Shown in pieces: positions 2-20,835 of a DNA stretch of 40,874 bases. The first letter of the stretch is position 1; each line of letters starts with the position of its first letter. The position numbers and the translations under genes were made by a program. The notes under the pieces are model-generated. The model saw only the letters and a list, made by a program, of their open reading frames with translations. It was not told the origin of the DNA and did not search any database. Source of the stretch: an uncultured Alphaproteobacteria bacterium (GTDB lineage: Bacteria; Pseudomonadota; Alphaproteobacteria; Methylaequorales; Methylaequoraceae); NCBI GenBank assembly GCA_902563505.1, contig CACEXK010000011.1, forward strand, positions 1 to 40,874, read 5' to 3'.

Positions 2-2510
2 CCAGGCTGGGACTGTCATGGTTTGCCTATAGAATGGAAGATTGAGGAAAAGTTCAAAAAATTAGGTAAGAAAAAAAATGAAATAGGTTTGAAAGAGTTC
101 AGAAACGAATGTAGAAAATTTGCTAATCACTGGGTTGATGAACAGAAAATACAATTTGAAAGATTTGGAATTCAAACGAATTGGGAAAAAATTTATTTAA
201 CAATGACCCCAGATTCTGAATTAAGTATTGTTAAAGAATTATTAAAGTTTTTAGAAACAGGAGAATTATATTTAGGTTTTAAGCCAGTCATGTGGTCAGT
301 TGTTGAACAAACTGCTCTTGCAGAGGCAGAAATAGAGTACCATGAAAAAACCTCTAATTCGATTTATGTAAAGTTTCCGATTAAACAAACTAATGAAAAA
401 ATTTCAGTTGTTATCTGGACAACCACGCCATGGACAATCCCATGTAACAGAGCAATTGCCTTTTCTAATGATTTGAAATATGTGGTCCTTGAAATTAGTG
501 ATTAAAGCATTAAATTTAGAAAAAAATGAACAACTTGTAATATCTGAAAATCTTTTGAGTGACTTTATTAGAAATCACAAGATTGATTCATATAAAATTA
601 AGCATGAGGTTAAGGCTAATTTTTTTAGAGAGGTTGAATGTAATCATCCACTACATAAATTAGGGTATAAGCATAATGTTAAACTTTTTCAAAGTAGTCA
701 TGTAACTGATGAAAGTGGATCTGGTTTTGTTCATATAGCACCAAATCATGGTTTGGAAGATTTTGAAGTAGGTAAGAAAAATAATTTAGGTAATGAGAGT
801 ACAGTCAATGAAAAAGGTATCTATGAAGACTCAATACCAATTTTTGCTGGATTACATATTTTTAAAGCTGATGAAAAAGTGATTGAGGAGTTACAAAAGT
901 CAAAAAACCTTATTAGTAATAATGAATATAAACATAGTTATCCGCATTCTTGGAGATCAAAAGCTCCACTTATTTATAGAGCAACTTCTCAGTGGTTTAT
1001 TTCAATGGATAATAAAAATTTGAGAAAAAAAGCTCTTAAAGAAATTGATGCTGTAGAATGGATTCCATCCAACAGTAAAAATAGAATATTTTCGATGATC
1101 AAAGATAGACCAGATTGGTGTGTATCCAGACAAAGAAGTTGGGGTGTGCCTATAACTATTTTTGTTTCAAAAAAACAAAAAAAACCAATAATAGATTCTG
1201 ATGTTAATAAAAAAATAATCTCTCTTTTACAGGAAAACGGTGTCGATTTTTGGTTTGAAGGTTCGGGTGAAAGTTTTTTACCAAAAAAATATAATTCGTC
1301 TGATTATGAAAAAGTTACCTCAATACTTGATGTGTGGTTCGATTCAGGATCAAGTCATGTGTATGTTTTTAAAAACAAAGGTGTTAAAGGAAAAGTTGAT
1401 TTATATTTGGAAGGATCAGATCAACATAGAGGATGGTTTCAAACATCTTTGTTGGAATCATGCGGGGTTTATGGAGAAAGTCCATACAAATCAGTTCTTA
1501 CACACGGATTCGTAATTGACGAAAAAGGCAAAAAGATGTCGAAGTCTCTAGGAAATGTTATTTCTCCAAAGGATATTGTAAATAAATTTGGTGCAGATAT
1601 TTTAAGAATTTGGGTTGCTAGTTCTAATTATAATGAAGATATAAGAATAAGTTATGAAAATCTTAATAGACACTCAGAAAGTTACAGAAAGTTAAGAAAT
1701 ACAATAAGATTCATCTTGGGAAACTTAAATGGCTGGAATACAAAAAGTAGTATTGATTACAAAGAATTACCAGAATTAGAAAAATATATTTTACATAAAC
1801 TAAAAAAAACTGACTCAGAGATTGAGATTTTTTTTAATAAATTTAATTTTAGCAAGGCTTTCCAATCTATTTTGAGTTTTTGTGCAAGTGATTTATCTAG
1901 TTTCTTTTTTGACATAAGGAAAGATACTTTATATTGCGAAAATGAAAATTCAGATTTAGTTAAATCCACAAAGACAGTTATGAGTATAATTTTCAATTGT
2001 TTAATAAGATGGTTGTCACCAATAATTCCATTTACAACTGAAGAAGCCTGGCAATGTTGGAGGAATGAAATTGATTCGAATGCAGAACTTAGTTGCCATT
2101 TATTGAAAAAATCAGAAATACCAAATGAGTGGTTGAGCCCAAAACTCGAAGAGAGATGGAAAAAAATTTTTGAAATAAGGGATACTTTTTTGTTATCTGT
2201 TGAAAACAAAAGAAATCTTAAAGAAATTAAATCAGGTATGGAAGTAAAGGTTAAATTTTTCTTCAAGGATCAAGATTATCATAAAATCGCTGAATCATTG
2301 GATTTGTCAGAAATATTGATTGCCTCTGATGTATCTCTATCATCTCAGGTCGATGAGGGATTTGAGAATCATCCTGGTAAAGAACATATTTTTTGTAAAC
2401 TCGAAGTAAGTCAGGGTTTTAAATGTCCTAGATGCTGGAAAATAATTGAAAATTTTGACAGTAGTAATGAAATTTGTGATAGATGCAAGAGTGTAATAGG
2501 TGCAATTTAG
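2..2510 (+). CDS. ileS: Isoleucyl-tRNA synthetase, 5'-partial, with one frameshift
   Basis: This class I synthetase charges tRNA-Ile and edits mischarged valine in the cytoplasm. The reading frame is already open at base 2 and reads PGWDCHGLPIE, the conserved block just after the HIGH motif, so the true start lies upstream of the window. The editing domain (TTPWTIPCN near 421-451, HIAPNHGLEDF near 735) is followed by KMSKS at 1533-1547. The C-terminal zinc site is CPRC...CDRC, near 2424-2487. The frame changes once: frame 2 ends at TAA 503-505 and frame 3 carries all downstream homology. One extra base around 480-505, most simply the second T of GATTAAAG, restores a normal protein. This may be a sequence error or a real lesion; the gene is essential, so error is favoured. 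lspA overlaps its last 11 bases. Confidence 0.96.
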
Positions 2511-2982
2511 AAATATAAAATTTTTTATTTTTTTTGTAATTTCCTTTCTTACAATTACACTCGACCAATTATCTAAATTTCTAGTTGCAAAAAATAAATA
2601 TGAGTTGCTATCAGGAATTAAGATTTTTAGTGGATTAAATTTTGTTTATGTTGAAAATCAGGGGATAAGTTTTGGAATATTTTCTAATCTAAATATTTCT
2701 TTTTATCTTGGGATTTTATCCTTTATTATTAGTTTTTATATTTTTTATCTAATTTTTTTATCAAAAAAGGTAATAGAATTTACATGTTTATCTTTAATTT
2801 TGGGTGGCGCTATTGGCAATGGATTAGATAGAGTTTTAAAAGGCTATGTAATTGATTTCGTTGATATTTATTATAAAGATTTTCATTGGCCAGCATTTAA
2901 TTTAGCAGATTCATGTATAACTATTGGTGGATTAACCTACATTTGGCTAATTTTTTATAAAAAATCCGAACAAAATTCATAA
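2500..2982 (+). CDS. lspA: Lipoprotein signal peptidase (signal peptidase II)
   Basis: LspA is an inner-membrane aspartyl protease that cuts the signal peptide from prolipoproteins after diacylglycerol is added to the +1 cysteine. The 160-residue protein has the usual length and four hydrophobic segments. The two catalytic aspartates are visible: D119 in VIDF and D137 in FNLADS. The supporting motifs ENQGISFG and GGAIGNGLDR are also present. The start is GTG at 2500, which overlaps the end of ileS by 11 bases and suggests translational coupling. Two lipoprotein genes, its likely substrates, follow directly. The ileS-lspA order is common in proteobacteria. Confidence 0.96.
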   Translation: MQFRNIKFFIFFVISFLTITLDQLSKFLVAKNKYELLSGIKIFSGLNFVYVENQGISFGIFSNLNISFYLGILSFIISFYIFYLIFLSKKVIEFTCLSLILGGAIGNGLDRVLKGYVIDFVDIYYKDFHWPAFNLADSCITIGGLTYIWLIFYKKSEQNS

Positions 2983-18416: not shown

Positions 18417-19073
18417 TTATTTTGAGAGATTTTCTGATAATTTTGTAACCCTTTTTAGTTCTTCGTTAACTATTTCTAGATTATTATCTAAATTTTTACT
18501 TGGATCATATTTAATTGGATTTCCCCAAACTGCAACAAACTTATTAAATGGAAATACAAAAACAAAGCTATCCCATGACTTTAACTTGATTTTAAATCTA
18601 GCTGAGTAGCTGAGTGGAATGATTATTGAATTAGTTTTTTTTTGAAGAGAAATTATTCCCTCTTTAACTTTTTCTTTTGGTCCTCTTGGACCATCTGGAG
18701 TTATTCCCACAGTATTAAAAATTTTTAATTCTTCAATTATTTTTTTGGCAGAAGAAATTTTTTTTTTGTTTGACGATCCTGAAATTGTATCGATTCCTAA
18801 GTGAGATACTGCATTTGAGATTATTCTTCCATCACGATGTTCTGAAATTAGCATTTTGAATTTTGTTTGATAATTCCAACAAAATGGAGCCATTAACATC
18901 CTATTATGCCAAAAACAAACTAAGATACTTTTTTTCTTTTTTAAGTTTTTTTTAATTGATTCATCATTTTTTACATACCATAGTGAGGTATTAAAACAAA
19001 TTTTGATATAGAATGATATCAACCAACCTAATAATTCCTGGGTATATTTATGTTTAAGAAAGTTTTTTATCAT
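18417..19073 (-). CDS. DUF374 lysophospholipid-acyltransferase-like protein
   Basis: A membrane-associated acyltransferase-like protein of the DUF374 group. CFWHNRMLMAP corresponds to the acyltransferase block I region, and GITPDGPRGPKEKVKEG is the signature of the family. Placement between waaA and msbA suggests it adds an acyl chain to lipid A or a related lipid; no member-specific substrate can be read from the sequence. ATG 19073 gives the family-like start MIKNFLKHK. ATG 19100 is in frame upstream and would enlarge the overlap with msbA from 20 to 47 bases. Confidence 0.88.
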   Translation of the reverse strand: MIKNFLKHKYTQELLGWLISFYIKICFNTSLWYVKNDESIKKNLKKKKSILVCFWHNRMLMAPFCWNYQTKFKMLISEHRDGRIISNAVSHLGIDTISGSSNKKKISSAKKIIEELKIFNTVGITPDGPRGPKEKVKEGIISLQKKTNSIIIPLSYSARFKIKLKSWDSFVFVFPFNKFVAVWGNPIKYDPSKNLDNNLEIVNEELKRVTKLSENLSK

Positions 19074-20835
19074 TAATATTTTTCTTAAATTGTAATTCAT
19101 AAAGGTTTTTGTATATTGCTGAACTTTTTAAAAGTTCTTTATGCTTTCCAATATCATTTATTTCTCCATTATGTATTAAAACGATTTTATCCGCATCAAT
19201 TATTGTTGATAATCTGTGAGCAATTATTAACGATGTTTTGTTTTTCATTAATTTTCCTAATGACAGGTGAATTTTTTTTTCGGATCTCGAATCTAACGCT
19301 GATGTAGCCTCATCTAATAAAAGAAATGGAGAGTTTTTAAGAAATGCTCTTGCTATCGCAACTCTTTGTTTTTGACCTCCTGACAATTTAACTCCTTTTT
19401 CACCTACAACCTCTTTTAGTCCTTTGGGAAATTTTCTAATGAATTCGCTGCAGTTAGCTTTCTTACAGGCATCACGAACTTCTTTTTCCCCAACACCTTT
19501 CATTCCGTAAGTTATATTATACTTTAGAGTTTCATCAAAGAGAACAATATCTTGACTTACTAAAGAGAAGTGACTCCTCAGGAAATCGAAACTTAAATCT
19601 CTAATATCGATGTCTCCAATGGTAATTCTTCCTTTTTGTATCTCATAAAATCTAGGTAACAAATTAAGTAGGGTTGTTTTTCCTGCTCCAGAGTAGCCTA
19701 CTAAAGCAACCTTCTCTCCTTTCAAAATTTCTAGATTAATATTTTTTAGATTTTTTAGTTTAGACCCATCATATTTAAAAGATACATTGGAAAAGAACAA
19801 ATCGTATGATTTATTTATCTCTAAGTGATGATCTTTGTTTTTCAGATTTTCAATAATTAATGGTTTAGTATCTATGATATCAAAAACTCTCTCCGCAGAA
19901 GCCATTGCCATTTGGAGTGTTGCATTCAAACTAGCAAGAGATTTTATTGGCTGGTAAGCCATTAGCAAAGCTGTTAGAAAAGAGAAAAATGTTCCTGGAG
20001 TAGTACTTCCTGATATAACCTGACTTCCTCCAATAAAAATTATAGCAGCAATTGCTATTCCTCCAATAGTTTCCATTAGTGGTCTGGATATTGAATTAAC
20101 ACGACTTGATTTAAAAGTTAAATTAAATAAATTATTAATTTCAACACCTATTTTATCCTCCTCAATTTTTTCGGCATTAAAGGATTTTATAGTTTTAATT
20201 GCTTGCATAGATTCAGTTAATTTTTTTGTGAATGTACCAAATCCAACTTGTGTATTTTTTGATATTTTTCTCAATCTTCTCCCAATTCTTGAAATAGGAT
20301 ATATAACCAATGGGAAGACGAGTATTGCTACTAATGCCAATTTAAAATCATGAAAAAACATCACTCCCACTAGAAAAATAAATGTAAGACTATCTTTAAC
20401 GATATTAATTATAACATTATGTACACCCCTTGAAAGAGAACCAACATCAGCTAAAAACCTTGATACTAGTGTGCCAGAATTTGTTTTGCTGAAATATGAC
20501 ATATCACATTTCAGCAATGATTTAAGCATATTTAATTGTAATTCGGAGACCATCTTGTAGCCCACGAAACTCATAAGTATGGACTGATAATATGATGCTA
20601 TACCTTTTATAATTGCAACTATTAGAACTGCTAAAGGAATTATAATAATTAGTTTTTGATTTTTATTAATAAATATTTCATCTAAAACTGGTTGCATCAT
20701 CCATGCATTAATTGCTGTCGCTGCAGCAACTAAAGTCATACAAAAAACTGAAATTACAAGCTTAAAAGTATGCTTTTTTATATACTCATTGAATAATCTT
20801 TGAACTATTTTTGCAGTAGAATTATTCTGATTCAC
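19054..20835 (-). CDS. msbA: Lipid A export ABC transporter, MsbA type
   Basis: A half-transporter with fused membrane and ATPase domains that, as a dimer, flips lipid A-core across the inner membrane. Six hydrophobic segments occupy about residues 20-310. The nucleotide-binding domain (about 340-580) has Walker A GYSGAGKTT, signature LSGGQKQR, Walker B LLLDEATSALD and a switch histidine in IAHRLST. The assignment as lipid A flippase rests on the lpxK-waaA context; other ABCB-type exporters share these motifs. The start is GTG in a GTGA overlap with the cysQ stop. Confidence 0.9.
   Translation of the reverse strand: MNQNNSTAKIVQRLFNEYIKKHTFKLVISVFCMTLVAAATAINAWMMQPVLDEIFINKNQKLIIIIPLAVLIVAIIKGIASYYQSILMSFVGYKMVSELQLNMLKSLLKCDMSYFSKTNSGTLVSRFLADVGSLSRGVHNVIINIVKDSLTFIFLVGVMFFHDFKLALVAILVFPLVIYPISRIGRRLRKISKNTQVGFGTFTKKLTESMQAIKTIKSFNAEKIEEDKIGVEINNLFNLTFKSSRVNSISRPLMETIGGIAIAAIIFIGGSQVISGSTTPGTFFSFLTALLMAYQPIKSLASLNATLQMAMASAERVFDIIDTKPLIIENLKNKDHHLEINKSYDLFFSNVSFKYDGSKLKNLKNINLEILKGEKVALVGYSGAGKTTLLNLLPRFYEIQKGRITIGDIDIRDLSFDFLRSHFSLVSQDIVLFDETLKYNITYGMKGVGEKEVRDACKKANCSEFIRKFPKGLKEVVGEKGVKLSGGQKQRVAIARAFLKNSPFLLLDEATSALDSRSEKKIHLSLGKLMKNKTSLIIAHRLSTIIDADKIVLIHNGEINDIGKHKELLKSSAIYKNLYELQFKKNINDKKLS

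Follow-up and report, generated by a model that had tools for sequence, protein, structure and literature searches.

The copy of ileS that opens the 40,874-nucleotide stretch of DNA analysed here (the window) is broken in frame, which raises the question of whether the cell itself carries a broken gene or whether the assembled sequence is at fault, and of how large the underlying change is. The window corresponds to contig 11 in the draft genome of a marine bacterium (1,273,483 bases in 24 contigs, 86.79% complete, 0% contamination), and its features are given on the forward (+) strand. Reading frame 2 stays open from base 2 up to a TAA at 503-505, and frame 3 is open after a stop at 474-476 up to the stop ending at 2510. 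The shift of frame is bounded by these two stops (477..505), and skipping one base joins the two frames. The frame-2 part (2..505) comprises 167 codons and the TAA, its 5′ side being cut by the contig start, and the frame-3 part (480..2510) comprises 676 codons from its first ATG. In the list of open reading frames (ORFs), the end of ileS is overlapped by the next gene (2500..2982), which we take to be lspA-like.

The bacterial IleS model TIGR00392 matches both pieces in order: positions 80-269 of its 861 over bases 2-562 of the window, and positions 254-856 over bases 519-2249. The sequence WTTTPWT in frame 2 is followed by KKMSKS in frame 3, as in the motif order of IleS. We take the former to mark the start of the editing domain and the latter to be the KMSKS-type motif, which lies in the frame-3 part together with what is presumably the C-terminal Cys pair. 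The curated cut-off of 621.4 bits is not reached by a full-length match; taken one by one, the two pieces reach 535.2 and 186.7 bits, since the gene is cut both by the break in frame and by the start of the contig. These results bear out the sequence-only reading of the locus, in which frame 2 is IleS-like up to the TAA and frame 3 carries the rest. That reading also held ileS to be otherwise intact, which proved too generous: the contig start falls inside ileS, the 5′ end of the gene is absent from the window, and the match begins at profile position 80, so that the N-terminal part is cut off. We assume that the HIGH motif, being N-terminal, belongs to the profile positions before 80 and thus lies beyond the contig start.

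The size of the change follows from the comparison with relatives. The set comprised 31 genomes of the same family from other genera, of which 28 gave an IleS covering the loop at the break; the other three (G011, G030 and G031) gave weaker TIGR00392 matches only and were left out of the loop count. The 28 sequences were aligned with the window IleS read through by skipping one base, and the loop was counted as running from the conserved Tyr that follows the start of the editing domain up to the conserved strand that comes next. Its length is 18 residues in 28 of 28 relatives vs. 16 in the window. Over the whole alignment, this is the sole departure of the window IleS from the family majority in length, and none of the 28 relatives shares the short loop; at the level of the family, the break is specific to the window's assembly. 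One skipped base and two missing codons add up to a net difference of −5 nt with respect to the family. The break had been described as a single-base frameshift, with one base too many as the possible error. The frameshift itself stands, but its size does not: a single base is the smallest size only modulo 3, and since the loop length is constant, the change is a net −5 and not +1. A single event with a net loss of 5 nt would be the simplest account of the aligned sequences.

Identity to the relatives is correlated between the two halves of the gene (0.82). Halves A and B differ in identity by 0.13 in the window vs. 0.11 (s.d. 0.04) among the relatives. Given this parallel kinship, neither half looks decayed or foreign. 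A contig chimera of two organisms joined at the break is likewise unsupported, the kinship of the halves being consistent. The sequence-only reading had also pointed to close relatives as a place to look. In 27 of the 28 relatives, ileS is kept in one frame over the part covered, and the break is therefore not a conserved feature of the family. The exception, G004, is split at another site, approximately 45 residues earlier than the window break and upstream of WTTTPWT, which is taken as a separate consensus fault in N-rich sequence rather than a shared split. The ileS consensus of this genome (L140) contains 47 N in 3,601 bases, and that of another relative, G017 (L149), contains 112 N in 3,501 bases. 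Among IMG/VR contigs, no relative was confirmed.

The break lies 503 nt (~0.5 kb) from the contig start, and with 48 contig ends of 505 nt each, 1.9% of the 1,273,483 bases are as close to an end. The usual neighbour upstream of ileS is ribF, which was not found in the 86.8% complete draft of the own genome. In a titled scan, the nearest named relatives (55-63% identity) are mostly alphaproteobacterial AG-... isolate assemblies, which we presume to be single cells, plus the MAG HIMB59-MED-G10. The present genome is likely a single amplified genome (SAG).

Other broken genes were judged by reading ORF lists, with 668,833 own bases (the window and 39 readable stretches, ~53%) set against 1,144,127 bases of the relative G007. 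The aligned part of the own genome (441,266 bases) contains seven candidates, two of them convincing, namely ileS and a gene that we take from its sequence to be of the RNase II/R type (L218:18877-19241; G000:C5), ~1 kb from a contig end. Beside the second break lies a 45-nt perfect inverted copy (18922-18966 and 19197-19241, 230 nt apart). No other perfect inverted pair in the own bases scanned reaches 26 nt within a distance of 3 kb, and none was found in G007; the L218 break looks like an amplification chimera. In G007 itself, five convincing genes (in L191, L192, L208 and L209) are broken in frame in 451,490 aligned bases, the corresponding own ORFs being whole, and one of them presumably encodes a D-Ala-D-Ala ligase-like protein. 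None of the five is near a contig end, so that proximity to an end is no general rule for such breaks.

The remaining candidates were dropped. In the first scan, four of five own candidates were short ORFs across gene boundaries, lying opposite to larger ones or overlapping them. In the second scan, five of seven were removed: L214 (twice) and L229, where it is the relative that has the broken frame and the own one is whole; L223, put down to a boundary effect at the N terminus; and L225, a short ORF beside larger ones. For G007, 12 candidate rows yielded the five clear broken genes, and seven rows were dropped: two in L156 (one repeat-rich protein), one in L162 (a short ORF), three in L167 (one short ORF) and one in L195, where G007 has a pair of ORFs and the own genome only one. 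In this last case, the own ORF has 714 aa (L230:5274-7415) vs. two overlapping ORFs of 369 and 343 aa in G007 (L195:5836-7964), all presumably permease-like; the genomes may differ by a genuine fusion, or either assembly may carry an indel.

Published benchmarks put these numbers in context. For marine single amplified genomes, PMC11247762 gives error rates per 100 kb of 1.5 for misassemblies, 3.0 for indels and 5.0 for mismatches, which would amount to approximately one indel per window-sized stretch if the present genome is from a single cell. For MDA assemblies, PMC3842359 describes discrepancies as small and mostly located at contig ends, and the typical chimera as an inverted join of nearby sequence. 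Such single-cell error rates may not apply here, as the SAG or MAG origin of the genome is unstated.

We consider it very probable (roughly 0.85) that the ileS break arose as an artefact, during amplification or assembly, and that the gene itself is an ordinary essential one. The cell would then carry an intact ileS, and the contig would have lost a few bases (net 5 nt compared with the family) from a variable editing-domain loop. This loss, whose technical origin we infer, would have arisen during whole-genome amplification or assembly, close to the contig end. An artefact is favoured by the constant 18-residue loop in the relatives, with no other length departure in the window; by the position no more than 505 nt from the end of a contig, where the start of ileS is missing and ribF was not found; by the chimera-like inverted copy in the second own broken gene; by the five broken genes of G007; by the published benchmarks for single-cell and MDA assemblies; and by the one-frame ileS of 27 relatives together with the lack of decay in either half. 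Errors of the single-amplified-genome type should be accompanied by others in the same assembly and be absent from relatives, and both are seen here, the former in L218 and the latter at family level. Against an artefact, no convincing inverted or repeated patch was found at the ileS break, the broken genes of G007 lie away from contig ends, and the site is not a homopolymer; as had been remarked from the sequence, no long run is present, the longest within the shift interval being three A. An assembly indel, one of the options raised by the sequence-only reading, is thus the best supported of them, in the form of a loss rather than an added base.

Taken as given, the sequence reads as a real and very recent out-of-frame deletion in one cell or strain, with ileS a fresh null or near-null allele, and the loss of 5 nt in one step is a simple mutation. 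We regard such a deletion as unlikely: ileS is an essential gene, and the second copy that had been suggested as a means of tolerating the break was not found by a TIGR00392 search of the 86.8% complete genome, in which one 2,176-nt contig reads N. The same search scores over the cut-off in 14 of 14 control genomes. Other matches in the own genome were rejected as a second ileS, their scores being like those of other class I synthetases, and are presumably valS, leuS, metG or similar. The undecayed halves and the single frame kept in 27 of the 28 relatives over the part covered also speak against a recent deletion.

It is less probable still that a base was added in error to a gene that had genuinely lost two codons in this lineage. 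The frames do join when one base is skipped, but two independent length changes would be needed at one spot, the two codons are missing in none of the 28 relatives, and the site offers no homopolymer. At the ileS break, neither a prfB-like CUU-UGA site nor a clear Shine-Dalgarno sequence was seen by eye, and Rfam gives no match in the window, in agreement with the earlier statement that a prfB-like signal is lacking. Elsewhere in the genome, a glutamine riboswitch match above the Rfam cut-off is found at L130:8693-8743 (G000:C13). The enzyme could be kept working by programmed +1 frameshifting or by the separate translation of two IleRS chains: starts at ATG 480, TTG 489 and GTG 498 lie in the new frame of the window gene just before the TAA, and E. 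coli IleRS reportedly tolerates being split (Shiba and Schimmel). But the signals named above were not seen by eye, no family relative has the arrangement at this site and the loop-length rule better fits an indel. We regard it as highly improbable that this lineage builds its IleRS from two chains divided within the editing domain, or by way of a +1 shift of an unrecognised kind. Neither a private mutation nor a split or frameshifted IleRS has positive evidence.

If the break is an artefact, it serves only as a caution that drafts from uncultured bacteria can show essential genes as broken close to the ends of contigs, and the conservation of loop length among relatives can reveal both the size and the sign of an indel. 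Should it be real, this would be a rare case of an essential synthetase split in nature.

Among known systems, the prfB-type programmed +1 frameshift relies on a slippery codon and an upstream stimulator. A +1 move would likewise join the window frames at a stop codon; unlike in prfB, neither element is seen by eye in the window, and the arrangement is not conserved. The window gene resembles bacterial IleS (TIGR00392) in that both halves match in order, with the WTTTPWT region and a KMSKS-type motif, and differs from it in that the frame is broken after residue 167 of the covered part and the 5′ end is cut. Errors of single amplified genomes include chimeras, small indels and contig-end errors. 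The ileS site departs from these in having no inverted patch, and the type of genome is unstated, but the window resembles them in its small net loss near a contig end, and a second gene of the same assembly is broken beside a 45-nt inverted copy.
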